Positions 3,001 through 64,000 of a stretch of 64,000 nt of DNA are shown here, one piece after another; the first letter of the stretch is position 1; each line of letters begins with the position of its first letter. The translations under genes were made by a program, and so were the position numbers. The notes beneath the pieces were generated by a model that saw only the letters and a program-made list of their open reading frames with translations, was not told where the DNA came from and did no database searches. Source of the stretch: Ascidia mentula (taxonomy: Eukaryota > Chordata > Ascidiacea > Phlebobranchia > Ascidiidae); NCBI GenBank assembly GCA_947561715.1, contig OX387202.1, positions 7,701,001 through 7,765,000 of the forward strand. Direction: 5' to 3'.

Positions 3001-6000
3001 TTTTCTTACCAATAACAGAATATACAGCAATTTTATGAATGTCAGAACTTGATCGTACAGTGTGTTTAAACTGAATTTTCATGCTTGCTCGGGCTGTAAC
3101 TGAAAGCTTTCTCCCTTTCTCTATGTACTCCTAAAAAGTAAGACAATGCCTTCTTGTAACATGCAGTGATTTTGTCCTGGTGATAATATAGATCAGTTGT
3201 TTATCTTCACTGTTTGTTTGGTTGATGTGTTTGAAATTAATGGTTACATAAATGGATATCTTAATTTTGAAAAGAATCTCAGCCAAGATAATGGAGACAC
3301 AGTGAGAAGGAATAGTAACATTACAATACCTCATACATTTAAAACAATACATTGAATTTCGGCTGCAGCAGTAAGATGGATTTCATATTGGGTAATATTC
3401 TCAACAGTTTAAAAGATTGAAGAACCACCAACAAAAACAATGTTTAATTGACACTTTATATTAGTTTTCTGTATGTTAAAGGATCCAACTACGCATTTGC
3501 ATGCTAAAGGCAAAGTCACTTACATTGATCCACATGCTAAAATCTGGAAAAATGTTTTCATAAGCTTGGACAACAGTTTTGGCCATATCTAGATCACCAC
3601 ATCGCAAACAATAGAATATTACAGCCCACACTGATAATCCATCAATTGTTTCCTCATCACAACCCTAAAACAGATTTTGATTTTGTTTCCACTCTAACCT
3701 ATTTTTAATTTCCTATCCTTAGTAAGAATTGTTTTTTCTATTGTGTTTTCATATTATGTTGGAAGGAAATGACCATAATCAGCTTACATCAGGTGTTTAC
3801 AAATTGTTAATGACAAATTTACAAAATTCATGAATAAGCAACATAATTAAGTGAACTTTAGATTTTGATATAAATAGAGGTTAATTTGTCCCAAAATGTT
3901 GAATACCAGTAATGAGTATTATTGTGAAAATATAAAAACCATGAACAAAATCCATTGTGCACATTTTAAACCATCATACACATACCTGGGAATGCAGTCC
4001 TGGTGAAATTTTTAAAAAACTTTTCACAAGATTTAATGTACTAGGAGCACCACCAAGTTCCGACGTAGGTGCCAAAGTGTATACTGAACTAAAGCCACAA
4101 TGCATTAAAATCGAGAACAACAATCTAGGCCATTTTTAAATGTAATGGAATGTGCTGTTTTTTATAACAATATCATACATGAATGTTTATCAAGCAGGAT
4201 TACATTAAAAGTTAATTTAAGCACCACAAGTACCATGCCAAGTTTATGTACAACAAAGCAACACAATTTTATAATAATAAGAAATAATAAATCTAATGAG
4301 CTTTAGGCTGACACTAATTTTAACAGCCATTTTATGTATTTTGGCATAACCATATAATATAGAAGACAAAACAGCTTTTGGACCATAAATATCAATAGAG
4401 TTTGGTGTACAGGCCACACATTAAAAATACATTTACAATAAAACCTTAACCAATGCAGAGGAATCTTGAATTTAAATTCAAAGACAATGTAACTGTATAC
4501 ATAATATGTATTTTATGAAAGTTTTTGTCAAAACATCTTCAAAATAAATAAAACATGTCAATACTTTCTGCATTAGCCAGTCTCATCTTTTTTAGAATTA
4601 CGAGAAAATTTGAATAATTGTGGAAGGAACTTTCCTTTACCTGAACAACATAGCTCCAAGTTGTACTCAAATGCCTACTGATTGCTTAGAAAAAGATTTT
4701 TTGTCTTATTCAAGTGACATGAAATCATCTGCACTTAATGTCTCAAAATATATTGGAATTATTTGTAAATGACATCAATAAACCTCAAAATACCTTAAAT
4801 ATGTGGCAGAAACACTTCTATAACTATATGTATTCCATCAGTAAAAGACCAATGAACCACACTTGTTACAAATGTTTTTTAAATTTGTAAATTACAAATA
4901 ATTTGATTTAGCAATGGTATGTTATGCAACCATAAGCAATATCATGAGATAGACTGTTTACCTAAACATGTAATCCCGATATGTCTCTTCAAGGTAGCTT
5001 TGGGCCCTCTGAACAATGTAACTATCATCACAATGTCCTTGTATTTGGTCTGCTGCTGCAGTAGTATGATTTACCTGCACCAAATAACCTCAAATATAAT
5101 AAATACATACATTACTTGCAGTGGCGGATCTAGGGGGGGGGGGTGTTTAGGTGTCAGAACACCCCCCTCAGCATTTTGGCACATTGTTTTGTGGGGTGTG
5201 AAAGTGCGGTTAATTTCCCGCTACGCAGGAACGAACACTACGGTCAAGTGTTCGTCTCCGCTGTTTCTTTGTTTCTCGGTCGCGCGCGCTGCATTCACGC
5301 GGCGATGACCGCTTATGAAACAATCGTTTGTTGTGCCGTTGGTCAATAACCCGTCAACAATACCGTTTTGAAAGCGCGACCTTATAAGTTTATTCATTTA
5401 TGCTACAATTTCTATACAGAAGCCGCACTCTGCAAGAGTTGTAATTGTTTGACAAAATTGCACCAAAATAAATGTAGCTAAACGAGTATTTTGTATTTCG
5501 TCTGTTTTTTTTTTTTTTATATATTTCGCAAATTATCTACTGCTAAAACATCGATGTGTATTTGGTGGTGCAAGACCACGTCCTAGACCATTACAGATTT
5601 GTTTTTAGAGCGGGGGGATCGAAATTTTGTTGGGAATTCCCCAATTTTCCGCTGTAAACTGAGGTTAATAGTGGCCGAGCATTGCAAGCAAAATACGAAC
5701 GCCAGTGTTGGTGCGAATCGTCACATAAACGGTGGCTTCCTGGCTTACGCAATTGCGTAACACTTGGAACACTCGACGCGAGTTTTTGCGATAGTGCTTG
5801 CGCCGTAGTTTCATTACCACGACTTTGAAAGAAAGGTTTAAATTTACGTGTTATCTAAAAGGAAATAAATGGGTTTTTCGTTATCAAGAATACATACAAA
5901 TAAAAACTATGTCGCATGCGGTGGCCTTATATTCCTCTCGTAATATTGACAACGTGTTTAACAACTAAACTGGTTTCCACACAGATTTTGACAAAAAATT

Positions 6001-11371: not shown

Positions 11372-13123
11372 TTAAAACAAAATCTCCTTGTCTTTAGTTT
11401 TGGTTTGGACATACGAAGTAAACCTTCTCAAAAATTTGGGATACTCTCTTTTGTATATAGCTCGCAGTACAGAAGCAGGAGCCCAGCCTCCTGGATTTAC
11501 ATTTGCAACATAAACAATTTCACAGTGCAGACAATCTCTATCCAAAGGTTGGTTGTCTTTGGGTTTGGTAACAAACGTTTGGCATATTAGGCATATTTCT
11601 ACTGTTGCTCGAACACAACCAGAAACAGGATTTGCATCATTGTGGTCAACTGAAAAGTTACACACCATCCAGGTATCATGTGGAATCCTTCCATCATTGG
11701 TAACAGGGTTGTCTATCTTCAACATTGATGATAGATACAAGCAATCTCGCTGTGCTGATGGCCACACCCTCTTGTGAGTTTGATAAATAATAATTGTTCT
11801 TTCATCAAGAACTTCAAGGACCCTGAAACTTTCAATTGTTCCTTCCCACTCCAGCCTTACATCCGTGTCCCAAAAGTAATGACACATTTCACGGGCAGTC
11901 ACCCGTTTAATACTATGAATAGCTTTTAGTGGGTCACAGATTAAACCATCTTCTACTAATTCTTTTCTATAGACCTTCATCTCCCCTTCCTCTGCAAATA
12001 ACTCCCATGTATGGTCATCAGTTGGAAGTTGGAGAGAATTAGATAAGTGATCTTGTATATGTTTTTCTAACTTATTCGAGAGTCGGTGTTTACCTTTAGG
12101 CTGTTTTTCTGCTTCTCTTAGAAGGGATCGTGAGTGTTCAATGTCTTTATTAACTCTTTCTTGTCTATCTAGCTCAGCTTCCACAGCATCAAAAAATTCT
12201 TCCTCTGTCAGGCCACTCTGTGGACCTTCCTCGAAGTCTGGACTACCCAAAAATGCAACATTTTTTTTAGCTGTTGCTAATGAGGCACTGTATTGCTCCT
12301 CAACTCGTTTCCTTCTTTCCTGTTCTTTTTCCAAGCGCTTTTGCCAAACTTCTTCACGCTTATTCATCAACTCAATGCAGTAGGCCAATGTTGTCAAAAC
12401 ACCATTAGTTGTTGCTTTAAAAGTGATAGCTTCCCCTTTAAAATCTACGCCATCTAAACCAACCGGTTTATCAATGATTGAATCTCCAACAAATGATGAC
12501 AAGTGCATTTGACCATCATCATCATTAATCTCATTTTCACCAGTCCAGTGATCCCTGTTATCCTTGGGCTGCATTTGACTTGCACATGAATCGAAATATT
12601 GTTGAAGAACACCGACCTGGCGATCAAGAATATCTCTAAAGGTTTCAAGTTCAGCTAATTTTTCTTTAAGACCATATGTTTTGCGAAATGAAGATGACGA
12701 TGTTATTGATGGTCCACTTCCCAAAGACAACATGGAACCATGTCTTCTTAAACCGATACTCTCAGCATCTAGTTTATTTGCCTCAATTACATCAATCCAT
12801 TGTTGCTTTTCAGTTTCTGTTGGTGCCCGCAAATACCATGTACTGTCATTAATGGTGACATCAAAACGACAAGGATCAAACTCATTGCTGGTTATAGTTG
12901 ATTTTGTCAGACTTATTGAGCCTCTGCAACCATATTCAGTTTCATCCTGAGTTCTGTAGTAACAAAGAGTTCCATCACGACAACACACAAAGCGATCTTG
13001 CCAGCCATGGATATAGTTGGTCCATTTGCTTAACACACCTTTTATGCTGGGGTTATTAGATTCATCATTCACAAAATCTTCTTCATCTTCAGAGCAACTC
13101 AGACTTTGCTGTGGATCCGTCAT
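11372..13123 (-). CDS. CERT1: Ceramide transfer protein CERT (StAR-related lipid transfer), single exon
   Basis: Moves ceramide from ER to trans-Golgi at membrane contact sites. The 583-residue frame shows the full family layout: PH domain, about residues 28-117 (GVLSKWTNYIHGWQDR), which binds Golgi PI4P; serine-repeat motif, 126-146 (RRHGSMLSLGSG), the phospho-switch; coiled coil, about 250-285; FFAT motif EFFDAVE, 309-315, which binds VAP proteins in the ER; START domain, about 365-583. Residues matching the human ceramide-binding set by alignment from memory are E427, Q448, N489 and Y538. The C-terminus KEILF fits human KPILF. An in-frame stop lies four codons before the ATG, supporting this start. 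Human CERT is 598 or 624 residues and its gene has many introns, but this copy has none, while its neighbours have 8 to 30 exons. No poly(A) tract or target duplication remains. It is complete and looks functional. Confidence 0.96.
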   Translation of the reverse strand: MTDPQQSLSCSEDEEDFVNDESNNPSIKGVLSKWTNYIHGWQDRFVCCRDGTLCYYRTQDETEYGCRGSISLTKSTITSNEFDPCRFDVTINDSTWYLRAPTETEKQQWIDVIEANKLDAESIGLRRHGSMLSLGSGPSITSSSSFRKTYGLKEKLAELETFRDILDRQVGVLQQYFDSCASQMQPKDNRDHWTGENEINDDDGQMHLSSFVGDSIIDKPVGLDGVDFKGEAITFKATTNGVLTTLAYCIELMNKREEVWQKRLEKEQERRKRVEEQYSASLATAKKNVAFLGSPDFEEGPQSGLTEEEFFDAVEAELDRQERVNKDIEHSRSLLREAEKQPKGKHRLSNKLEKHIQDHLSNSLQLPTDDHTWELFAEEGEMKVYRKELVEDGLICDPLKAIHSIKRVTAREMCHYFWDTDVRLEWEGTIESFRVLEVLDERTIIIYQTHKRVWPSAQRDCLYLSSMLKIDNPVTNDGRIPHDTWMVCNFSVDHNDANPVSGCVRATVEICLICQTFVTKPKDNQPLDRDCLHCEIVYVANVNPGGWAPASVLRAIYKREYPKFLRRFTSYVQTKTKDKEILF

Positions 13124-14222
13124 GTCAATTTTTTATAGTTTTTTATGCATAACAAATGACATTCAATATAGACCTATAAACTTAAAAATAAACACACATA
13201 TGTGTATATTGAAGTTTTGCAAGTACAATGAAGGTGTCATAAAACCAATTCAGACACACAAACTACTACCCCCTACGAAACGGAGGGCCACCACAACCCA
13301 CATGACACCAACGGATCTCGGGATCCAAGTTGACAAAAAATCCAACAAAATTTCTTATTAACGCGGACAACTTGGCCGTCTTACAAGGTAGAAGCATGTT
13401 TTTTTTTACATTTAATAGTTTACATCAATGATTTCAAAAGTTCGTAAATCGTGGTTCAATTACCTTTTAACCTTACCACGGTCGGACAAATCAAAATCAC
13501 TAATCTCTTTAATCCAAACCACTCACGAATGTATAGACAAATGTCGGGTCGCGACTACTGATCTCTATAGAATACTGAAAGAGCACCAATTGGGAAAAAA
13601 GCGAGGCAAATTGAGGCCCGTGTCGGCCATTTTGAAAGGTCCTATTTTGCTGGAAAACACCAATACACCAAGACACAGCCAGGTCGCACACCTCGATCCA
13701 CATAATAGTCTATGTAACATAGAAATCAGTGCGAACGTTAACGGTCAGTTGTAATAAACTACCGGTCACTTTTTAGTAAAAAAATTAAACACGGTATTTA
13801 ATTATACAGTTCAAGTGCACATGACACGGCCATAGCAACTCTGCGTAATTAAAGGCACATCTACAACAAACGTATTTCTAAAGTTTTCGGTTCTACGCCA
13901 CCTTAATAAAATAGTAGCGGCAACCACTAATCGTAAACCTTTTTCGCTGTAGCGAATTTGACGTCTTGCAAGAGATTCACGTTAAAAAATGCCTAGTTTG
14001 CACAGGAAAAGCGCCTTATATTAAATAAATCGAATAGTTTCAAACAAAGGAGAGCCGCACATTATGTTTCTAGCCGTGGCAGTACACACAAAAAAATCGT
14101 CTCTGTGACATCATAAGCCTGTGTCTAATTATCAGCAAACCAAAATGTGTACTGCATAGCAACACGCATGTTTCCTGATACTAAACACTGGAACGCCCGA
14201 CGGAAAGGATGCAGGCGGGGTT
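13124..14222. other. Upstream flank of CERT1; one repeat copy, otherwise nothing recognised
   Basis: It contains a third copy of the repeat found at 9133-9400 (about 13325-13400, with CTTACAAGGTAG). The rest has no supported gene. The CERT1 promoter should lie close to 13124, but no core element is clear. Confidence 0.35.
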
Positions 14223-50799: not shown

Positions 50800-53462
50800 A
50801 ATATTTAGTCAACCCCCACGTTAGTGGGTTTCCAGGGGTAATCCGTTCTTTTGGTAAGGCAACTATGATTTGCGACCCTGCCTTGGCGTGCCGCAATTTG
50901 CAGCTCGTACACTGACGCACAACGCGCCGTACAGCTGAATGTCCCTTAATTACCCAATACTTACCATCATAAGCGCACTGACGCGAGCACATCCTTCGAA
51001 GTCCTTCGAAGCGGTGATAATAATCTATGATTAAATCCGTTACATGGTGGTGATGGGGCAGAATTACCTGATATTTCTGTTGTAAATCCAAGTCTGATTT
51101 ACGTAAACTTCCTCCAACATGAATTATTCTGTTGACGACACAAGGGTAGAGCTTGCACATCGATGACGTGTAGCCTGTTGAACAAAGGAGTTTAAAAACT
51201 TTTGCAGTTCACCAGATTCACTAGTCAGCAGGAAAAGCTTCTCGTTGCACCAATTGCAGGATATTTCTCGTTGCCAGATCCAACTCTCGAACTGTTAGAC
51301 CAACCGAGAAAAATTTCGGGGTTTCAGTGAAAACTGCAGCTCCTCTTCGTCCGTATTTCCACAGCAGACAAGTCCTGAAGCGGGTTAACCAGGCAACTGA
51401 TTTTTGTAAGGTAACCCACGAGGAGAAATGTTGCAACAGGCTCTGTAAAGGCATTTGGTTAACGGTCACATTTCGAGATCTGCATTCAGCACGGGAAGGA
51501 CATGCGGTTGATCTGGCCCAAATTTCCGACCTTTCCACAGGAATTCTGGGCCCCTAAACCTTTTCAAATTCGCTGGGCATCACTTTGGGGAAGTGGGTCG
51601 TCCCAACCAAGTTGTTGGTTGCACAGATTCTGCATCAGTCTTTTCATGGGAAGAACAAATGGTTGAATAAACCCCTGCGGGTCATAGACCTGACTGATCA
51701 TGACAACATGCCACGGCGAGTATGTGGTTTTTCCTTTATATTCACACGAATTCCAAAACAGTCGTTGGCCATGTCCTACTGAACACCCAACGCTCTTTCC
51801 ATCGGCAAGTTCGATAAATCCAAGTTCAACACCGCACCTGAGCGGTCGTCCTGGTCTACAGATTCAAGCACAACAAACGAGTTGCTGAGAAATTTCGTCA
51901 GATGAAATTCTCCCTCACGCAAAATGGCACTTACATCCTTGATAAGCTCAGTGGCCAGGGCAACTGTTGACACTGACTTAAGACAGTCGTCTACATAAAA
52001 ATTCTTTAAAACAGTCTCAACAACAGGGGTCGAAAACAAGTCCTTCTTATCCAACGCTGCTTTTCTTAGCGCAAAATTGCACATCTCGGCGAAGAGGTGG
52101 CACCAAACAAATGCACACAACAGCTTGTCGTTCAAAGACGATCTCTTGTAGAAAGCAGCACAGTCGAAAACAATTCTAAATTTGCTACCCGTAGCATGAT
52201 ATGGTATGTACCATGTTTGCTCTGTACATGGCAAACAGTCTGGGGGTATTTTTCGCGCAAACCCTTGTTTTAAGTAATCCTCTATTTTTTCTTTGTACTT
52301 TTCAAAAACTGGGTATCTTTCTCAAAACGCCGCTTGAGATGTAGCAAGCGTCGCTCTGCCAAAAGTCTATTGTGTGGCAGCTTCGGTTCGGGCGACTTCC
52401 AAGGTAACGCAATCTGGTAATGTCCATCTACTTTGATGACACTCTCCTCCATAATGGAAATAGCGCGTTTGTCATCAAGTGACAGTCCCGGGCCCAGATG
52501 GCCTTTCTCCTGAAACTCATTACTGTACAGTTGATCTAACTGGCGATGTAGTTCCGTGTCTGAATGCATAAGTTGATACAGGCTTTCTGGCTGTGATGTT
52601 TTCTTCCTGGGTCAAACAAGCACCAACCCAACCCAGTGCGTATAGCAACGGGGTCGCCTCGAGTGCCACACACAACATCGCGTTGTTCGTGCGCCTCATA
52701 CACATCGGCTGCAACAAGCAAGCCAATGTCTGGGCAATCAATTACAGGAAATTCAAGGTGGCGGATGTGTAGATACCGCTTAACATCATTTACTGTAGGA
52801 ATGCTAACCTGTAAGTTCGGCAACTTGGGCACGACCATGACATTTTCCATAAAAAATCGTTCGTTGTCCTTTCAACCCTGTACTGATAACGAAACTTCAC
52901 TACTGCGCAGTGTCTGCGTTCCATTTAAGGTGGTTATCGTTGAGTTGTCCTCCACACCACGCAATCCCAGCCTTTCTGCCAAGACCTTAGAGCAAAGTGA
53001 AGTATCCGATCCGTCATCCAGAAATGCATGGGTAAAGCAAGGCTTTGAATTCGTACCAAATACAGTCACTGGCACCACTTTCAGACGCACAGAGCTAGCT
53101 CGTAGCGTGGCAGCAGACGTTCCTGACACGCCAGCCCCATGACCTTCCACCGGTGAACTTGTGCGTTGACCCGATGGAGCAGTAGGATGTGTCCAATGTA
53201 GTAGTGTGTGGTGCCTTTTTCCATAATCCTCTACTCGACACACCTGATTCAATTTGCACTCGGACGCGAAACGATCGGGACGAAAGCAATTGTAACGCAG
53301 CTTGTTACGACGTATCAATGCGTGGCGTTCTTTCAGCGGCTGTTTCTTTAAGTTCTCGCATTTCCTCAAAAAGTGAAAGGCTTCGCAATCGGGGCAGGTT
53401 TGAGTGGGTCGGAGGGAGTCGTGATTCACAAAAGTCTCCACTGAGACACCGTTGATTACCAT
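50800..53462 (-). mobile_element. BEL/Pao LTR-retroelement fossil (gag zinc knuckles to integrase)
   Basis: This is the most complete Pao copy here. On the minus strand, in order: a gag C-terminal zinc-knuckle region (CPDCEAFHFLRKC), the aspartic protease region (AFLDDGSDTSLCS), the protease-RT linker ([19 protein letters not shown]), reverse transcriptase with a YVDD box (FYVDDCLKSV), and near 50800-51160 the H2C2 zinc-binding start of integrase (VRQCTSCKLRHAKAG). It is broken in several places. The integrase core, the front of gag and both LTRs were not found. The gag side stops where the palindromic satellite begins (about 53460). Confidence 0.85.
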
Positions 53463-53816
53463 TGAGTAGGATATGGTGGCCTATACATTTTTCCATAAGA
53501 AAAAAAATTTCGTTTCGAATTTCGTTTTCCCGAAACAAATTTTGTTTTGAAATAATCAATTTTGTTTCCAAAAGCAAATTTCGAAACAGAGTTCAAAACG
53601 AATTTGAGAAAAGGTGGTTATGGTTAAAAACGAAATTCGAAACAAATTTTTTGGAAAAACTTTTTTGAAAAAGTAAATATCGCTTGATGGAAACAAAGAG
53701 CTGATATTCAATATAACGACGTCAGTACTCAAAAACGTAGTTTTGTAAACAAATTTTGTTAACAAATCAAAGTCCGTTTTGAAATGCCCAAATTTTGAAG
53801 TATCAAAAATGAAACT
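53463..53816. repeat. Degenerate A/T-rich palindromic flank of the satellite
   Basis: Multiple short blocks such as TTCGTTTCGAA, GAAACAAATTTTG and TTTTGTTTCC in both orientations. They resemble fragments of the 77-bp unit but are not in register with the array. Confidence 0.6.
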
Positions 53817-56625
53817 GTGAAAACAAAATTTGTTTTCGAAACAAAATTCGTTTACAAATGCCTTTCGATCGTTACTATCTATGTTTCCCATAGCGAGAAA
53901 CAAAATTTGTTTTCGAAACAAAATTCGTTTACAAATGTCTTTGGATCGTTACTATCTATGTTGCCCATAGCGGGAAACAAAATTTGTTTTCGAAACAAAA
54001 TTCGTTTACAAATGCCTTTGGATCGTTACTATCTATGTTGCCCATAGCGGGAAACAAAATATGTTTTCGAAACAAAATTCGTTTACAAATGCCTTTGGAT
54101 TGTTACTATCTATGTTGCTCATAGCGGGAAACAAAATATGTTTTCGAAACAAAATTCGTTTACAAATGCCTTTGGATCGTTACTATCTATGTTGCCCATA
54201 GGGGGAAACAAAATTTGTTTTCGAAACAAAATTCGTTTACAAATGCCTTTGGATCGTTACTATCTATGTTGCCCATAGGGGGAAACAAAATATGTTTTCG
54301 AAACAAAATTCGTTTACAAATGCCTTTCGATCGTTACTATCTATGTTGCCCATAGGGGGAAACAAAATTTGTTTTCGAAACAAAATTCGTTAACAAATGC
54401 CTTTGGATCGTTACTATCTATGTTGCCCATAGCGGGAAACAAAATTTGTTTTCGAAACAAAATTCGTTTACAAATGCCTTTCGATCGTTACTATCTATGT
54501 TGCCCATAGCGAGAAACAAAATTTGTTTTCGAAACAAAATTCGTTTACAAATGTCTTTGGATCGTTACTATCTATGTTGCCCATAGCGGGAAACAAAATT
54601 TGTTTTCGAAACAAAATTCGTTTACAAATGCCTTTGGATCGTTACTATCTATGTTGCCCATAGCGGGAAACAAAATATGTTTTCGAAACAAAATTCGTTT
54701 ACAAATGCCTTTGGATTGTTACTATCTATGTTGCTCATAGCGGGAAACAAAATATGTTTTCGAAACAAAATTCGTTTACAAATGCCTTTAGTACGTTACT
54801 CACTATGTTGTAAACAGTGGGAAACAAAATTCGTTTTCGAAACAAAATTCGTTTACAAATGCCTTTGGATCGTTATTATCTATGTTGCCCATAGCGGGAA
54901 ACAAAATTTGTTTTCGAAACAAAATTCGTTTACAAATGCCTTTGGATCGTTATTATCTATGTTGCCCATAGCGGGAAACAAAATATGTTTTCGAAACAAA
55001 ATTCGTTTACAAATGCCTTTGGATTGTTACTATCTATGTTGCTCATAGCGGGAAACAAAATATGTTTTCGAAACAAAATTCGTTTACAAATGCCTTTGGA
55101 TCGTTACTATCTATGTTGCCCATAGGGTGAAAAAAAAATATATATTTTCGAAACAAAATTCGTCTACAAATGCCTTTTGATCGTTACTATCTATGTTGCC
55201 CATAGGGTGAAACAAAATTTGTTTCCGAAACAAAATTCGTTTACAAATGCCTTTCGATCGTTACTATCTATGTTGCCCATAGCGGGAAACAAAATTTGTT
55301 TTCGAAACAAAATTCGTTCACAAATGCCTTTGGATCGTTACTATCTATGTTGCCCATAGCGGGAAACAAAATTTGTTTCCGAAACAAAACTCGTTTACAA
55401 ATGCCTTTGGATCGATACTATCTATGTTGCTCATAGCGGGAAACAAAATTTGTTTTCGAAACAAAATTCGTTTACAAATGCCTTTGGATCGTTACTATCT
55501 ATGTTGCCCATAGCGGGAAACAAAATTTGTTTTCGAAACAAAATTCGTTTACAAATGCCTTTGGATCGTCACTATCTATGTTGCCCATAGCGGGAAACAA
55601 AATTTGTTTTCGAAACAAAATTCGTTTACAAATGCCTTTGGATTGTTACTATCTATGTTGCTCATAGCGGGAAACAAAATATGTTTTCGAAACAAAATTC
55701 GTTTACAAATGCCTTTAGTACGTTACTCACTATGTTGTTAACAGTGGGAAACAAAATTCGTTTTCGAAACAAAATTCGTTTACAAATGCCTTTGGATCGT
55801 TATTATCTATGTTGCCCATAGCGGGAAACAAAATATGTTTTCGAAACAAAATTCGTTTACAAATGCCTTTGGATTGTTACTATCTATGTTGCTCATAGCG
55901 GGAAACAAAATATGTTTTCGAAACAAAATTCGTTTACAAATGCCTTTGGATCGTTACTATCTATGTTGCCCATAGGGGGAAAAAAAAATATATATTTTCG
56001 AAACAAAATTCGTTTACAAATGCCTTTCGATCGTTACTATCTATGTTGCCCATAGGGTGAAACAAAATTTGTTTTCGAAACAAAATTCGTTTACAAATGC
56101 CTTTCGATCGTTACTATCTATGTTGCCCATAGCGGGAAACAAAATTTGTTTCCGAAACAAAATTCGTTCACAAATGCCTTTGGATCGTTACTATCTATGT
56201 TGCCCATAGCGGGAAACAAAATTTGTTTCCGAAACAAAATTCGTTTACAAATGCCTTTGGATCGATACTATCTATGTTGCTCATAGCGGGAAACAAAATT
56301 TGTTTTCGAAACAAAATTCGTTTACAAATGCCTTTGGATCGTTACTATCTATGTTGCTCATAGCGGGAAACAAAATTTGTTTTCGAAACAAAATTCGTTT
56401 ACAAATGCCTTTGGATCGTCACTATCTATGTTGCCCATAGCGGGAAACAAAATTTGTTTTCGAAACAAAATTCGTTTACAAATGCCTTTCGATCGTTACT
56501 ATCTATGTTGCCCATAGCAGGAAACAAAATTTGTTTTCGAAACAAAATTCGTTCACAAATGACTTTGATCTGTTACTCACTATAGTGACCATAGTGGGAA
56601 ACCAAATTTGTTTTTGTGTTTAAAA
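53817..56625 (+). repeat. Tandem array of a 77-bp satellite, about 36 copies
   Basis: The unit contains GCCTTTGGATCGTTACTATC, TATGTTGCCCATAGCGGG and AAACAAAATTTGTTTTCGAA. Spacing between equivalent positions (53940 and 54017) is 77 bp. Variants include GGATTGTTAC, TTGCTCATAG, an A-run unit with ATATATATTTTCG, and a TTAGTACGTTACTCAC unit. The last copy, near 56560-56620, is a distinct variant with CTCACTATAGTGACCATAG. Because 77 is not a multiple of 3, the open frames here are a by-product. Confidence 0.95.
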
Positions 56626-56689
56626 CTTCACGTCAAATGACTTCAAAATAAAGCAAATGTAGGCGGCCAACCATCAGAATTTGACAGTA

Positions 56690-59600
56690 GCCATCATGCC
56701 TTAGCAGTTTTCACTGATGGTTTTGTACTGGCACCTAGTATTTGTGTGCAAAATTTCAAGTCGCTTGATGCAAAAAATGTTCAAATCACAGGCGGGCAAC
56801 TCTCAAAATTAGTTAATTCCGCCGAAACTTAGCCACCATAGATTCAAACATGCGTTTTCTTTCACGAATAAAAAACTAAAAGACATAGGCCAATTTGGTT
56901 CTCACAGCTTGTTTTGTACTGGCATCTAGTATTTGTGTGCAAAATTTCAAGTCGCTTGATACAAAAAATGTTCAAATCACAGGCGGAAAACACTCAAAAT
57001 TAGTTAATTCCGCCCAACCTTAGCCACCATAGTTTCAAACATGCGTTTTCGTTCGCAAATAAAAAACTAAAAGACATAGGCCAATTTGGTTTTCACTGCT
57101 CGTTTTGTACTGGCATGTAGTATTTGTGTGCAAAATTTCAAGTCGCTTGATGTAAAAAAATGTTCAAATCACAGGCGGGCAACTCTCAAAATTAGTTAAT
57201 TCCGCCGAAACTTAGCCACCATAGATTCAAACATGCGTTTTCTTTCACGAATAAAAAACTAAAAGACATAGGCCAATTTGGTTCTCACTGCTCGTTTTGT
57301 ACTGGCATCTAGTATTTGTGTGCAAAATTTCAAGTCGCTTGATACAAAAAATGTTCAAATCACAGGCGGAAAACACTCAAAATTACGTAATTCCGCCCAA
57401 CCTTAGCCACCATCGTTTCAAACATGCGTTTTCGTTCGCAAATAAAAAACTAAAAGACATGCGCCAATTTGGTTTTTACTGCTCGTTTTGTACTGGCATC
57501 TAGTATTTGTGTGCAAAATTTCAAGACGCTTGATATAAAAATGTTCAAATTGGAGGCGGGCAACTGTCAATTTCAGTTAATTTCGCCGAACCTTAGCCAC
57601 CATAGAGTCAAACATGCGTTTTCGGTCGCGAATAAAAAACTAAAAGACATAGGCCAATTTAGTTTTCACTGCTCGTTTTGTACTGGCATGTAGTATTTGT
57701 GTGCAAAATTTCAAGTCGCTTGATACAAAAATGTTCAAATTGCAGGCGGGCAACTGTCAATTTGAGTTAATTTCGCCGAACCTTAGCCACCATAGTGTCA
57801 AACATGCGTTTTCGGTCGCGAATAAAAAACTAAAAGACATAGGCCAATTTGGTTTTCACTGCTCGTTTTGTACTGGCATCTAGTATTTGTGTGCACAATT
57901 TCAAGTCGTTTGATATAAAAATGTTTAAATTGCAAGCGGGCAACTGTCAATTTGAGTTAATTTCGCCGAACCTTAGCCACCATAGTTTCAAACATGCGTT
58001 TTCGGTCGCGAATAAAATTCTCAAGGACATAGGCCAATTTGGTTTTGATTGTTCGTTTTGTACTGGCATCTAGTATTTGAGTGCAAAATTTGAAGTCGCT
58101 TGATATAAAAATGGTCAAATTGCAGGCGGGCAACTGTCAATTTGAGTTAATTTCGCCGATCCTTAGCCACCATAGTTTCAAACATGCGTTTTCGGTCGCA
58201 AATAAAAAACTAAAAGACATAGGCCAATTTGGTTTTTACTGCTCGTTTTGTACTGGCATCTAGTATTTGTGTGCAAAATTTCAAGACGCTTGATATAAAA
58301 ATGTTCAAATTGGAGGCGGGCAACTGTCAATTTCAGTTAATTTCGCCGAACCTTAGCCACCATAGAGTCAAACATGCGTTTTCGGTCGCGAATAAAAAAC
58401 TAAAAGACATAGGCCAATTTGGTTTTCACTGCTCGTTTTGTACTGGCATGTAGTATTTGTGTGCAAAATTTCAAGTCGCTTGATACAAAAATGTTCAAAT
58501 TGCAGGCGGGCAACTGTCAATTTGAGTTAATTTCGCCGAACCTTAGCCACCATAGTGTCAAACATGCGTTTTCGGTCGCGAATAAAAAACTAAAAGACAT
58601 AGGCCAATTTGGTTTTCACTGCTCGTTTTGTACTGGCATCTAGTATTTGTGTGCACAATTTCAAGTCGTTTGATATAAAAATGTTTAAATTGCAAGCGGG
58701 CAACTGTCAATTTGAGTTAATTTCGCCGAACCTTAGCCACCATAGTTTCAAACATGCGTTTTCGGTCGCGAATAAAATTCTCAAGGACATAGGCCAATTT
58801 GGTTTTTATTGTTCGTTTTGTACTGGCATCTAGTATTTGAGTGCAAAATTTGAAGTCGCTTGATATAAAAATGGTCAAATTGCAGGCGGGCAACTGTCAA
58901 TTTGAGTTAATTTCGCCGATCCTTAGCCACCATAGTTTCAAACATGCGTTTTCGGTCGCAAATAAAATTGTAAGGGACATAGGCCAATTTGGTTTTCACT
59001 GCTCGTTTTGTACTGGCATCTAGTAGTTGTGTGCAAAATTTCAAGTCGCTTGATTCAAAAATGTTCAAATTGCAAGCGGGCAACTGTCAATTTGAGATAA
59101 TTTCGCCGAACCTTAGCCACCATAGTGTCAAACATGCGTTTTCGGTCGCGAATAAAAAACTAAAAGACATAGGCCAATTTGGTTTTCAATACTCGTTTTG
59201 TACTGCCATCTAGTATTTGTGTGCAAAATTTCAAGTCGCTTGGTGCAAAAAATTTTCAAATCACAGGCGGGCAACTCTCAAAATTAGTTAATTCCGCCGA
59301 AACTTAGCCACCATAGATTCAAACATGCGTTTTCGTTCACGAATAAAAAACTAAAGGACATAGGCCAATTTGGTTTTCACTGCTCGTTTTGTACTGGCAT
59401 CTAGTATTTGTGTGCAAAATTTCAAGTCGCTGGATGTAAAAAAATTTTCAAATCACAGGCGGGCAACTCTCAAAATTAGTTAATTCCGCCGAAACTTAGC
59501 CACCATAGATTCAAACATGCGTTTTCTTTCACGAATAAAAAACTAAAAGACATAGGCCAATTTGGTTCTCACTGCTCGTTTTGTGCTGGCATCTAGTATT

Positions 59601-61344
59601 TGTGTGCAAAATTTCAAGTCGCTTGATACAAAAAATGTTCAAATCACAGGCGGAAAACACTCAAAATTACGTAATTCCGCCCAACCTTAGCCACCATAGT
59701 TTCAAACATGCGTTTTCGTTCGCAAATAAAAAACTAAAAGACATGCGCCAATTTGGTTTTTACTGCTCGTTTTGTACTGGCATCTAGTATTTGTGTGCAA
59801 AATTTCAAGTCGCTTGACATAAAAATGTTCAAATTTGAGGCGGGCAACTGTCAATTTCAGTTAATTTCGACGAACCTTAGCCACCATTGATTCAAACATG
59901 CGTTTTCTTTCACGAATAAGAAACTAAAAGACATAGGCCAATTTGGTTCTCACTGCTCGTTTTGTACTGGCATCTAGTATTTGTGTGCAAAATTTCAAGT
60001 TTCTTGATATAAAAATGTTCAAATCACAGGCAGGCAACTCTCAAAATTACGTAATTCCGCCGAAATTAGCCTTCATAGTGTCAAACATGCGTTTTCGTTC
60101 GCGAATAAAAAACTAAAGGACATAGGCCAATTTGGTTTTCACTGCTCGTTTTGTACTGCCATCTAGTATTTGTGTGCATAATTTCAAGTCGCTTGACATA
60201 AAAATGTTCAAATTGCAAGCGGGCAACTGTCAATTTGAGTTAATTTCGACGAACCTTAGCCACCATAGTGTCAAACATGCGTTTTCGGTCGCGAATAAAA
60301 TTCTCAAGGACATAGGCCAATTTGGTTTTTATTGTTCGTTTTGTACTGGCATCTAGTATTTGAGTGCAAAATTTCAAGTCGCTTGATATAAAAATGTTCA
60401 AATCACAGGCAGGCAACTCTCAAAATTACGTAATTCCGCCGAAATTAGCCATCATAGTGTCAAACATGCGTTTTCGTTCGCGAATAAAAAACTAAAGGAC
60501 ATAGGCTAATTTGGATTTTATTGTTCGTTTTGTACTGGCTTCTAGTATTTGTGTGCAAAATTTCAAGTCGCTTGACATAAAAATGTTCAAATTGCAGGCG
60601 GGCAACTGTCAATTTGAGTTAATTTCGCCGAACCTTAGCCACCATAGTGTCAAACATGCGTTATCGGTCGCGAATAAAAAACTAAAAGATATAGGCCAAT
60701 TTGGTTTTCACTGCTCGTTTTGTACTGGCATCTAGTATTTGTGTGCAAAATTTCAAGTCGCTTGATACAAAAATGTTCAAATTGCAGGCGGGTAACTGTC
60801 AATTTGAGTTAATTTCGCCGAACCTTAGCCACCATAGTGTCAAACATGCGTTTTCAGTCGCGAATAAAAAAGTAAAAGACATAGGCCAATTTGGTTTTCA
60901 CTGCTCGTTTTGTACTGCCATCTAGTATTTGTGTGCAAAATTTCAAGTCGTTTGATATAAAAATGTTTAAATTGCAGGCGGGCAACTGTCAATTTGAGTT
61001 AATTTCGCCGAACCTTAGCCACCATAGTTTCAAACATGCGTTTTCGGTCGCGAATAAAATTCTAAAGGACATAGGCCAATTTGGTTTTCACTGCTCGTTT
61101 TGTACTGGCATCTAGTATTTGTGTGCAAAATTTCAAGTCGCTTGATACAAAAATGTTCAAATTGCAAGCGGGCAACTGTCAATTTGAGTTAATTTCGCCG
61201 AACCTTAGCCACCATAGTGTCAAACATTCCTTTTCGGTCGCGAATAAAAAACTAAAAGACATAGGCCAATTTGGTTTTCAATGCTCGTTTTGTACTGCCA
61301 TCTAGTATTTGTGTGCAAAATTTGAAGTCGCTTGATATAAAAAT
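56690..61344 (+). repeat. Tandem array of a 190-bp satellite, plus orientation, about 24 copies
   Basis: The unit runs through CTCGTTTTGTACTGGCATC, TAGTATTTGTGTGCAAAATT, CAAGTCGCTTGATATAAAAA, GTCAATTTGAGTTAATTTCG, CTTAGCCACCATAG and CATAGGCCAATTTGG. There are two subfamilies: one with AATCACAGGCGG and CGTTCGC/CTTTCACG (mostly 56750-57460 and 59215-59720), the other with AATTGCAGGCGGG and CGGTCGCG. Spacing is 190 or 191 bp. Four-copy blocks of 760 bp repeat exactly in order (57469-58228 and 58229-58988). Confidence 0.95.
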
Positions 61345-61381
61345 TAACTCAAATTGACAGTTGCCCGCTTGCAATTTAAAC
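61345..61381. other. Spacer at the centre of the satellite palindrome
   Basis: A 37-bp segment between the last plus-oriented unit, ending GCTTGATATAAAAAT at 61344, and its complement, starting ATTTTTATATCAAGC at 61382. The spacer itself is part of a minus-oriented 190-bp unit (CTCAAATTGACAGTTGCC). Confidence 0.9.
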
Positions 61382-63095
61382 ATTTTTATATCAAGCGACT
61401 TGAAATTTCGCACACAAATACTAGATGCCAGTACAAAACCAGCAGTGAAAACCAAATTGGCCTATGTCTGTTAGTTTTTTATTCGCGTCCGAAAACGCAT
61501 GTTTGACACTATGGTGGCTAAGGTTCGGCGAAATTAACTCAAATTGACAGTTGCCCGCCTGCAATTTGAACATTTTTATATCAAGCGACTTGAAATTTTG
61601 CACACAAATATTAGATGCCAGTACAAAACGAGCAGTGAAAACCAAATTGGCCTATGTCTTTTAGTTTTTTATTCGCTACCGAAAACGCATGTTTGACACT
61701 ATGGTGGCTAAGGTTCGGCGAAATTAACTCAAATTGACAGTTGCCCGCTTGCAATTTGAACATTTTTGTATCAAGCGACTTGAAATTTTGCACACAAATA
61801 CTAGAAGCCAGTACAAAACGAGCAATAAATCCAAATTGGCCTATGTCGTTTAGTTTTCTATTTGCGAACGAAAACGCATGTTTGAGACTATGGTGGCCAA
61901 GGATCGGCGAAATTAACTCAAATTGACAGTTGCCCGCCTGCAATTTGAACATTTTTATATCAAGCGACTTCAAATTTTGCACTCAAATACTAGATGCCAG
62001 TACAAAACGAACAATCAAAACCAAATTGGCCTATGTCCTTGAGAATTTTATTCGCGACCGAAAACGCATGTTTGAAACTATGGTGGCTAAGTTTCGGCGA
62101 TATTAACTCAAATTGACAGTTGCCCGCTTGCAATTTGAACATTTTTTATCAAGCGACTTGAAATTTTGCACACAAATACTAGATGCCAGTACAAAACGAG
62201 CATTGAAAACCAAATTGGCGTATATCTTTTAGTTTTTTATTCGCGACCGAAAACGCATGTTTGACACTATGGTGGCTAAGTTTCGTCGAAATTAACTCAA
62301 ATTGACAGTTGCCCCCCTGCAATTTGAACATTTTTATGTCAAGCGACTTGAAATTTTGCACACAAATACTAGAAGCCAGTACAAAACGAACAATAAAATC
62401 CAAATTGGCCTATGTCCTTTAGTTTTTTATTCGCGACCGAAAACGCATGTTTGACACTATGGTGGCTAAGGTTCGGCGAAATTAACTCAAATTGACAGTT
62501 GCCCGCTTGCAATTTGAACATTTTCATATCAAGCGACTTGAAATTTTCTACACAAATACTAGATGCCAGTACAAAACGAACAGTGAAAACCAAATTGGCC
62601 TATGTCTTTTAGTTTTTTATTCGCGACCGAAAACGTATGTTTGACACTATGGTGGCTAAGGTTCGGCGAAATTAACTCAAATTGACAGTTGCCCGCTTGC
62701 AATTTGAACATTTTTATATCAAGCGACTTGAAATTTTGCACTCAAATACTAGATGGCAGTACAAAACGAGCAGTGAAAACCAAATTGGCCTATGTCCTTT
62801 AGAATTTTATTCGCGACCGAAAACGCATGTTTGAAACTATGGTGGCTAAGGATCGGCAAATTAACTCAAATTGACAGTTGCCCGACTGCAATTTGAACAT
62901 TTTTATGTCAAGCGACTTGAAATTTTGCACACAAATACTAGATGCCAGTACAAAACGAGCAGTGAAAACCAAATTGGCCTATGTCCTTTAGAATTTTATT
63001 TCTGAACGAAAACGCATGATTGAGACTATGGTGGCTAAGGTTCGGCGGAAATAATTGATTTTGAGAGTTGACCGCCTGCGATGGTGCTGTTTCAA
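61382..63095 (-). repeat. Tandem array of the 190-bp satellite, minus orientation, about 9 copies
   Basis: The same unit on the opposite strand: CCAAATTGGCCTATGTC, CTATGGTGGCTAAGG, ACTCAAATTGACAGTTGCC, TCAAGCGACTTGAAATTTTG and ATGCCAGTACAAAACGAGC. Both subfamilies are present; the last copy (near 63040) returns to the CGGCGGAAAT type seen at the outer edge of the left array. Confidence 0.95.
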
Positions 63096-63355
63096 CTATG
63101 AACAACATATTTGTGTCGGACTAATGGTATTACAACACAGTGATTGACGGATCAACGGCATTTGTAATCGAAATTTGTTTCAAAAACAAATTTTGCTTCC
63201 CACTATGTACAACACAGTGATTAACGGATTAAATGCATTTATAAACGAATTTTGTTTCGAAAACAAATTTTGTTTCCCACTATGTACAACACAGTGATTA
63301 ACGGATCAAAGGCATTTGTAATCGAATTTTGTTTCGAAAACAAATTTTAATTCAT
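63096..63355 (-). repeat. 77-bp satellite, minus orientation, about 3 copies
   Basis: Three head-to-tail units of GTACAACACAGTGATTAACG...GAATTTTGTTTCGAAAAC...TTTTGTTTCCCACTAT, 77 bp each. This is the reverse complement of the variant found at the inner edge of the left 77-bp array (about 56560-56620). Confidence 0.92.
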
Positions 63356-64000
63356 GCTATGTTCATGATGTTTTTGTGCAACTTTTTGCATTTTTGAATA
63401 GATAAAATCAGTTATCACAGTATATATAGACGTAAGTTATACTTACTGAGGCGTTTCAACTTTAAATTAAGAAACGTTTTGCTTCAACATATGCCCTACT
63501 CACACATATTTCGCACAGCGTTTGTTTCGTGTGATAGTGGATGAAAATCTAGTTTGTTTTGGATTAATTCGTATGACATGTTCCAACAGATTAGTTTGAT
63601 AAATTATTTGTTAAAGATTTCTGATTTAGGAACAATCCTTAACCACGGCTCCATTATCTCACGTTTGGACCAACATTGTCCAATTTATCCGATAGTGTTG
63701 ATTTAAATAGCTCATTTGACACCTGTATAACCTAGCATTTTTATTCCATAATATGTTACAGCAAGTTTGCGTAACGTTTCTAATTTCAAGTATGGCCCTC
63801 TACCCCCATCATGTGGCCAGTCGTCGTCAAGAATTTTGTTCACAAAATTCGTTTACAAAATTCGTTTACAAAATTTCAATTTTGTTTCCCACCATTACAT
63901 AGGTAGCTGCAATTCGCTCGCGCGGCTTTCCTTTCATGCTCGCTTGACCTTTTGATTTACGTTCGTCGACGGAAACAAACCTCATCATTGGCGAAAGACT
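63356..64000. other. Right flank of the satellite; no gene recognised
   Basis: AT-rich unique-looking DNA, with a last scrap of 77-bp-type sequence at about 63833-63890 (repeated ACAAAATTCGTTT, then TTTTGTTTCCCACCAT). No gene is supported. Confidence 0.4.

Follow-up and report, generated by a model that had tools for sequence, protein, structure and literature searches.

Two tandem repeats, with units of 77 and 190 bp, lie in mirror order and orientation on contig OX387202.1 of Ascidia mentula, which raises the question of whether this symmetry is an accident of satellite DNA or of assembly, or the build of a single mobile element.

A dispersed element with inverted satellite arms

Within the window, by which we mean the whole 64,000-nt stretch analyzed, array coordinates and unit counts were taken from Tandem Repeats Finder (TRF). 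These arrays, together with 92-94% complementarity of the inverted arms over 719-nt stretches, bear out the mirror order 77(+)/190(+)/190(-)/77(-) described in a first-pass annotation, which was also correct in giving unequal arms of about 7.5 kb on the left and about 2 kb on the right. Complementarity of this degree over 719 nt indicates that the arrangement is not due to chance. The right limit given there, 63355, was wrong, as the conserved right terminus lies at 63903, and the block represents an entire copy, 10,433 bp long (53471-63903), of a non-coding element dispersed through the genome. The parts of this copy run left end, 77-mer(+), 190-mer(+), inversion point, 190-mer(-), 77-mer(-), and right end:

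53469..53470: GG, left junction (target core); precedes the left terminus in 27/27 left ends anchored on ATATGGTGG
53471..53820, + strand: left unique end, starting with ATATGGTGGCCTATAC; start aligned in nine copies
53821..56614, + strand: 77-mer array of the left arm; TRF period 77, 36.2 units, 93% match
56615..56706, + strand: spacer between the 77-mer and 190-mer TRF arrays
56707..61344, + strand: 190-mer array of the left arm; TRF 24.4 units
61341..61344: inversion point (junction J1), where the two TRF arrays overlap by 4 bp
61341..63079, - strand: 190-mer array of the right arm; TRF 9.2 units
63080..63130, - strand: right-arm spacer between TRF arrays
63131..63348, - strand: 77-mer array of the right arm; TRF 2.8 units
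63349..63903, - strand: right unique end, closing with CCCACCATTACATAGG; last 184 bp matched genome-wide
63838-63875: 13-bp repeats in the right unique end (TRF 13-mer array)
63899..63901: variable trinucleotide, ATA in the window copy, directly before the terminal GG
63902..63903: GG, right junction; no variants in 28 anchored copies

At least 28 left ends (near full-length matches to the first 230 bp, 88-100% identity) and at least 30 right ends (near full-length matches to the last 184 bp) are present in the genome, and the genome-wide check proposed in the first-pass annotation, for other loci with the same order and outer ends, found left and right ends paired at 26 loci, 10-31 kb apart, on nine large contigs. 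All nine copies that were fully read carry 77(+) at the left and 190(-)/77(-) at the right. The 190(+) arm is long in two of them, short in five, reduced to a fragment in one (C1_5.63), and absent in one (C52_20.5), with both 190-mer arms at least partly kept in 8/9 copies and both 77-mer arms in 9/9, and these are not the single-orientation arrays lacking a mirror partner that had been named as evidence against the palindrome. Across the nine copies, the left arm shows 24 to 57 hits to the 77-mer in a constant position and the right arm 2 to 6; a 110-bp BLAST gap separates the 77-mer and 190-mer arrays in 8/9, and the longest arms reach about 17 kb (copy C52_12.4). Long inverted arms of tandem repeats and dispersed copies sharing their outer ends are the structural marks of a foldback, and the shared ends and the common outer order in 9/9 copies support a foldback-like element.

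The centre junctions are of four kinds, two of them common to more than one copy, and J1 of the window copy is also present in copy C73_2.75. Judged by eye, the inversion points have little shared sequence. A satellite edge duplicated in inverted form, or a join made in assembly, is suggested by this scant sharing, as in break-induced inversion, and by the difficulty of assembling such arrays, but it is extremely improbable in view of the 26 end-paired loci, the recurring junctions, and the single-GG empty site described below. Fixed ends, with flanks that vary from locus to locus except in a few copies lying in arrays of the same kinds, leave the edge duplication without support. Chance and a single inversion event were rejected on the arrays and junctions of the other copies, and a one-off assembly join is not supported.

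Insertion at a single GG

In each of the 24 two-ended copies examined, GG borders the element on either side. The window copy interrupts a reading frame, the two parts of which flank it:

52875..53468, - strand: left flank, gag-like frame of a presumed BEL-type element, broken by the insertion
63904..64000, - strand: right flank, upstream part of the same gag-like frame, running past the window

The left-flank translation carries a C..C...H...C motif, and we take this frame to be that of a BEL-type element; an Asp_protease_2 match in the same flank (E 0.00057) falls under the Pfam cut-off. Joining the window flanks through one GG gives an unbroken frame that extends for 88 codons upstream and 198 downstream, whereas joins with two GG or none break it; one join in three would fit by chance. 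Where insertions lie in tandem arrays of 138, 127, and 102 bp, the unoccupied form is a unit with a single GG.

No target site duplication of 7-10 bp was found in the 24 two-ended copies, which share GG on both sides. Of the huge foldback element proposed at first, a dispersed element with tandem-array arms is retained, and membership in FB or Galileo, with their longer duplications, is not. A 5-bp staggered duplication (NNNGG) was also ruled out, as the triplet preceding GG is common to both sides in just 2/24 two-ended copies.

The end motifs are GG followed by ATATGGTGG at the left and CCCACCATTAC-NNN-GG at the right, and the joined-end form reads CCACCATTAC-NNN-GG-ATATGGTGG. The right-end triplet is ATA in 22 of the 30 right ends that are exact outside it, and other triplets stand in the remaining 8. 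Variants occur at its three positions in 3, 4, and 5 of 28 anchored right ends, and in none of the 28 at the five bases before it or at the GG after it. Six of the right ends that deviate from ATA have a known left flank, and in two of these the triplet equals that of the left flank.

The targets resemble the joined ends of the element, with 7.15 matches of 18 compared to 4.89 at 3,485 control GG sites of the window, a value reached in none of 20,000 resamplings, and control ends in the same test gave p 0.77 when swapped and p 0.98 when reversed. This resemblance persists when 1,112 GG sites in the sequence flanking the copies serve as controls (0/50,000), as well as without the array targets and without the triplet (0/50,000 each). 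The right side shows it more strongly (0/20,000), the left side giving p 0.008, or p 0.04 over 7 bp, and single target sites vary from 2 to 11 matches of 18. Cryptons are expected to combine the lack of a staggered-cut duplication with a short identity between end and target, and both are found here, as GG and the target resemblance.

Candidate enzymes and mechanisms

Taken together, the GG flanks, the end-like targets, and the variable triplet lead us to read the insertion as conservative recombination at GG. With modest confidence, we propose a non-autonomous, gene-free element of 10-31 kb that would insert whole, by a site-specific type of exchange between the GG of its joined ends and the GG of a loosely end-like target, with a circular form as the probable intermediate and a tyrosine recombinase of Crypton type, provided in trans, as the probable enzyme. 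Cryptons are tyrosine-recombinase elements proposed to move as circles, and in animals no terminal repeats were found for them and non-autonomous derivatives outnumber autonomous ones (excerpts of PMC3212892); the closest kind would be non-autonomous CryptonI/CryptonA, for which these excerpts do not describe satellite arms. The variable triplet resembles the coupling sequence, a heteroduplex spacer, of the tyrosine recombinase elements Tn916 and Tn6283, as outlined in part of PMC5991714.

Inside the nine read copies, no open frames of at least 240 codons were found apart from a nested retrotransposon, nor was any coding region for a tyrosine recombinase, which a non-autonomous Crypton member would lack. 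The 904-codon frame in copy C73_2.75, considered as a transposase, is that nested non-LTR retrotransposon, with Exo_endo_phos and RVT_1. An autonomous partner was sought through three domains, and none was found: the serine recombinase PF00239 and the phage-type integrase PF00589 had no match in the genome, the same searches being positive in 10/14 and 14/14 control genomes, and the Crypton-type DUF3504 had three matches (C1:8409029, C70:16650224, and C73:7633328), none of which adjoins any listed element end. One of the three lies in an 828-codon open frame, one in a 423-codon frame, and one is broken by internal stops; they may be domesticated host genes. Two further domain searches bore on the nature of the host: insect odorant receptors (PF02949) had no match here or in any control, and GH6 (PF01341) had two matches above its cut-off and none in 14 controls, which suggests a tunicate; the conclusions on the element are independent of this. 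A search of the assembly for the joined-end circle pattern returned one match only, an ordinary right junction, a result with which a circular intermediate would still be compatible.

Several observations count against our preferred explanation, namely that no recombinase is tied to the element, that PF00589 has no match, that no joined-end form was found, that the deviant triplets agree in only 2/6 right ends, and that target resemblance is weaker on the left side. In addition, the left flank has target bases while the right end has mostly ATA, and simple reciprocal exchange predicts no such asymmetry.

The GG pattern would also suit an IS607-like serine recombinase element exchanging over an identical GG dinucleotide, as the termini of IS607 carry GG, its targets have an invariant GG, and insertion leaves no duplication (PMC6188088, in part). 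We find this improbable, given that a 2-bp exchange leaves the three variable bases beside GG unexplained, that PF00239 had no match in this genome, and that IS607 targets, in the same partial account, have no other consensus or sequence relationship, unlike the targets here.

A non-autonomous Helentron (HINE-like) carrying satellite repeats is a still fainter prospect. Helitrons have TC...CTRR ends and insert at A/T or T/T; the ends here lack this signature, and GG occupies 24/24 two-ended sites, unlike the T-rich sites at which algal Helitrons have been described. The Cg_HINE Helentrons of oyster likewise scatter satellite-like arrays, exceptionally of two kinds in order, but these are single central arrays in the portion of PMC7492417 that describes them, and the repeats of our element form an inverted pair.

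A classic foldback-like DNA transposon in the manner of FB, Galileo, and Tetris, with a DDE transposase, a 2-bp GG target duplication, and long repetitive inverted arms, is the strongest rival but less likely than recombination at GG, although it would explain the tandem-repeat arms, the non-coding copies, and a GG doubled upon insertion. It does not fit because of the GG flanks, the end-like targets, and the variable triplet: neither targets that resemble joined ends nor a triplet varying at one end only are readily explained by it. To our knowledge, no DDE family has a fixed GG duplication. Mosaic ends, seen in six copies with right ends 81-82% and left ends 96-97% alike to those of the window copy, are much like the Galileo chimeras and array-length changes described in parts of PMC3573991, but known foldbacks duplicate more, 7 bp in Galileo and 8-10 bp in Tetris.

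Tetris of Drosophila virilis is also a non-coding foldback with tandem repeats, of about 220 bp, within its inverted arms, and these repeats build longer satellite-like arrays as well; according to the same excerpts (PMC4079207), it has one repeat kind and arms up to 1,735 bp, unlike the GG only, the two ordered repeat kinds, and the arms up to about 17 kb found here. Galileo, of the P superfamily, shares the long tandem-repeat inverted arms and the non-coding and chimeric copies, and differs in its 7-bp duplications, arms up to about 1.26 kb, and known P-type transposase (PMC3573991 and PMC3688188, both in part). Membership in FB or Galileo is not supported, as both the termini and the pattern of targets suggest another enzyme.

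The satellite arms

The 77-mer proves not to be separate from the element, as the last 40 bp of the right end, in reverse complement, align with the 77-mer unit of either arm. Both alignments beat the best of 300 base shuffles, with scores of 17.5 vs 13.5 and, by a narrow margin, 20.0 vs 19.0, whereas the left end showed no 77-mer similarity over its first 40 bp in this comparison. Under recombination at GG, the 77-mer arrays, being akin to the right terminus, probably supply many recombinase-binding sites on both arms; in Galileo, the tandem repeats of the long inverted arms hold extra transposase-binding sites (passages of PMC3573991 and PMC3688188).

The 190-mer arrays would be filler of the interior, growing, shrinking, and losing its centre once the element has inserted. 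Comparison of 483 extracted units revealed two unit types, intermixed in the left-arm array of the window copy, and expansion of the long arrays appears to take place inside individual copies. The complementarity of the arms might instead suggest that they are kept for double-stranded RNA that feeds small-RNA silencing, but one copy has no 190(+) arm and mobility accounts for the structure unaided, and we give this idea very little weight.

More tentatively, this could be the first giant satellite-armed foldback moved by site-specific recombination of the tyrosine type, a non-autonomous, Crypton-like element in which a terminal recombinase-binding motif was amplified into inverted 77-mer arrays and which, as one mobile unit, scattered two satellites, seeding arrays at the landing sites. 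Dispersed satellite arrays are here traced to one precisely bounded mobile element that spreads them in 10-31 kb units, and the junctions of this element suggest that DDE transposons are not the only source of foldback architecture; if true, repeated terminal binding sites and inverted satellite arms would be convergent across unrelated enzymes. Such elements put long inverted repeats at many loci, as possible substrates for inversions and small-RNA production.

The relic L081, a right terminus with three 190-mers, was considered as a second family and rejected. Its neighbouring sequence matches only five places, all on contig C69, with four clustered in about 9 kb; because of this confinement we regard the relic as an old, truncated copy whose flank was duplicated locally. 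A second terminus set, CTTTGTTTCCCACTATTACATAGG, occurs at 11 loci, and one copy begins inside a second left end, at a GGTGG site internal to that end.

Copies and anatomy of the element

The first-pass annotation had claimed two tandem repeats, of 77 and 190 bp, recurring in mirror order, and our repeat analysis of the window bore out both the arrays and their order, with 92-94% complementarity between the arms across 719-nt stretches. Used as queries against the genome (195.8 Mb in 79 contigs), both edges of the window copy (53471-63903) proved common to many loci. Terminus queries of 232 bp (left) and 184 bp (right) returned at least 28 near full-length left ends and at least 30 near full-length right ends, along with at least four partial or diverged left matches and at least five additional short right matches. 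Pairing by coordinates joined 26 left ends to a same-strand right end at 10-31 kb, and a 27th pair of 9.6 kb (C69:21.71-21.72 Mb) was found via a pattern search for the right end; a single left end and four right ends remained without a partner.

We read 9 of the 27 end-paired copies in full, with array lengths as given by the assembly. All nine start with the same left end followed by 77-mer(+) units (24 to 57 matches per copy) and close with 190-mer(-) units, a short 77-mer(-) stretch (2 to 6 matches) and the right end. The variable component is the 190-mer(+) array, with 24 units in the window copy, 67 in C73_2.75, whose array an insert interrupts, between four and six in each of five copies, one fragment in C1_5.63 and none in C52_20.5. 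In a tenth copy, C52_9.6, of which 16.9 kb out of some 26.5 kb were read, the 77-mer(+) array covers 9.8 kb and is followed by four 190-mer(+) matches and then by 190-mer(-). At two loci whose right end is unpaired (C2_12.35 and C69_15.08), the only arm present in the 20 kb covered is a short right one. The inversion points are of four kinds, with little shared sequence at the joins as judged by eye:

J1: the window copy and C73_2.75
J2: five copies
J3: one copy
J4: one copy, with extra sequence at the join

With gaps not counted, the left ends of the nine copies are 95-100% alike and their right ends 96-99% alike, except that of C52_20.5, which is 89-90% like the others. Six copies have right ends 81-82% like that of the window copy, yet left ends 96-97% like it, which makes them mosaics. 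At C71:820480-821130, a 156-bp left end runs straight into a second, complete one, an arrangement that looks like the product of one copy recombining at a GGTGG site inside another. At C69:13471045-13472544, about three plus-orientation 190-mers precede the same right terminus by ~400 bp, and we take this locus for an old truncated relative. On the minus strand of C67:7470000-7479999, a diverged left end stops after about two 77-mer-like units, and beyond it lies a long array of a different satellite, whose unit measures roughly 66 bp as judged by eye. A second terminus set, CTTTGTTTCCCACTATTACATAGG, was found at 11 genome places (10 at two mismatches and one at three; e.g., C71:10113425 and C72:14593724) and may represent a sister element family.

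Insertion sites and the variable triplet

The window copy interrupts a minus-strand frame bearing a zinc-knuckle motif, which we take to be gag-like; its only Pfam match was a sub-threshold aspartyl protease. When the flanks are joined through a single GG, the frame runs for 88 codons upstream and 198 codons downstream of the junction. A join with no GG, or with two, leaves no more than 18 codons upstream of the 198-codon part; by chance alone, one join in three would be expected to fit. Copies lying in 138-, 127- and 102-bp tandem arrays agree with this, since the occupied unit carries GG at both borders of the insertion and the uninterrupted unit a single GG. All 27 anchored left ends have GG before the left terminus, and GG forms the last bases of 28 of 28 anchored right ends (counts that leave out the right end of C2_6.0); it is also present at diverged ends outside the anchor set (both of C2_16.7, the left of C70_13.9). 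Two more tandem arrays were seen ~3.4-9 kb to the right of the window copy, and C1_5.63 sits inside another array of the 102-bp kind:

about 4315-8234 of C70:7764000-7773999: 102-bp array, 38 units
about 8754-10000 of C70:7764000-7773999: 199-bp array

Three variable bases stand directly before the terminal GG of the right end. Among 30 right ends taken by exact match to the terminal pattern outside this triplet, 22 carry ATA and eight carry others (GTA twice, AAC, AGT, GTT, AAA, ATG and AAG). The triplet positions show 3, 4 and 5 differences across 28 aligned copies, and the five bases before the triplet and the GG after it show none; the 14 bases upstream of those five served as the anchor and were not counted. 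The deviant triplet is that of the copy's own left flank in two (C2_0.9 and C52_19.9) of the six copies with a known left flank, and differs from it in four. PMC5991714 describes variable spacers like this triplet for tyrosine recombinases, namely the coupling sequence in Tn916 and a 6-bp spacer in Tn6283. It derives the Tn6283 circle from one specific strand, and a similar single-strand origin could be the reason that the triplet is found at the right end only.

We compared targets (left flank, GG and right flank of the 24 two-ended copies) with the joined ends of the element, scoring 9 bp of the right end before the GG and 9 bp of the left end after it, for a maximum of 18. Four sites were dropped before testing: three same-kind array sites and one copy starting inside another left end. 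The 20 targets scored a mean of 7.15, against 4.89 for 3,485 GG sites of the window (0 of 20,000 resamples as high). The right side by itself was strong (0 of 20,000) and the left side weaker (p 0.008), and the same targets showed no resemblance to swapped (p 0.77) or reversed ends (p 0.98). The result also holds when 1,112 GG sites in the DNA flanking the copies serve as the null (0 of 50,000), for 17 non-array sites, and with the variable triplet skipped. Scores range from 2 to 11 over all 24 sites, with 7 at the window site; the sites of C69_17.2 and C73_2.75 are GGG, making their register ambiguous.

Proposed recombination mechanism and candidate enzyme

Taken together, the exact ends, the GG core on both sides, the end-like targets and the variable spacer argue for conservative recombination at the element ends, by which the element would have inserted. 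A GG core is used by IS607 serine recombinases, according to PMC6188088, but a profile search of the genome gave no match to the serine recombinase/resolvase domain PF00239. A search with DUF3504, a Crypton-type domain, gave three matches. Cryptons rely on a tyrosine recombinase and have been proposed to move as circles, and PMC3212892 states that terminal repeats were not found in animal Cryptons. Because DUF3504 is also known in domesticated form, perhaps including in tunicates (PMC3212892), and a genome search gave no match to the phage integrase PF00589, we only infer a Crypton-type recombinase as a candidate enzyme. A literature search for foldback elements that combine tandem repeats with a tyrosine recombinase returned nothing, and no description among the matches listed was recognised as this element.

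Stop-to-stop frames of at least 150 codons in the nine fully read copies are array frames (longest 230 codons) or junction-crossing frames (longest 235 codons), with one exception, a 904-codon frame in C73_2.75 whose matches (Exo_endo_phos, 3e-11; RVT_1, 4.9e-33) identify it as a nested non-LTR retrotransposon; apart from it, no genes were found among these frames. Beyond the non-LTR frame, the insert of C73_2.75 holds long runs of tandem 9-bp units, AGGTCCGCT and related sequences.

The 77-mer and probable growth of the arrays

The last 40 bp of the right end align, as reverse complement, with the 77-mer; the left end gave no alignment in the same comparison. Counted on either strand, the motifs AAACAAA and ATTCGTTT reach 9-44 per kb in the ends and 77-mers, 0 in the 190-mers and 0.8 per kb in the flanks. 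Because of this alignment and motif density, we regard the 77-mer as a putative binding region, into which a terminal recombinase-binding region would have amplified. Binding sites have been shown within the repeats of Galileo, as reported in PMC3688188, and the 77-mer may have a comparable role here.

In the left arms of the window copy (mean best identity 0.977) and C73_2.75 (0.987) and in the seven long right arms (0.981-0.997), comparison of 483 nearly full 190-mer units usually placed the nearest unit within the same array. Long right-arm units matched the right arms of other copies at about 0.93-0.98, except for those of C52_20.5, at 0.83-0.85 against the right arm of any other copy. The short left arms of five copies gave 0.87-0.90 within and 0.93-0.98 between copies, and the short right-arm units of the window copy and C73_2.75 (0.950 and 0.953 within the array) were nearer to units of left arms, or of the short right arm in the other of these two copies, than to their own array. 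From these within- and between-copy identities, we infer that the long arrays probably expand inside individual copies and that the ends and short arms would be inherited from a common ancestor. In a rough motif test, left arms consisted mostly of B-type units and right arms mostly of A-type units, with both types in the left arms of the window copy, C73_2.75 and C69_21.9, and many C52_20.5 units were of neither type.

Elsewhere in the genome, a profile search gave two glycosyl hydrolase 6 matches above cut-off, at C71:8046784 and C52:18248788, which suggest a tunicate host. The window also carries an uninterrupted 586-codon frame with PH and START domains (11375-13132, minus strand), like the ceramide transfer protein CERT.
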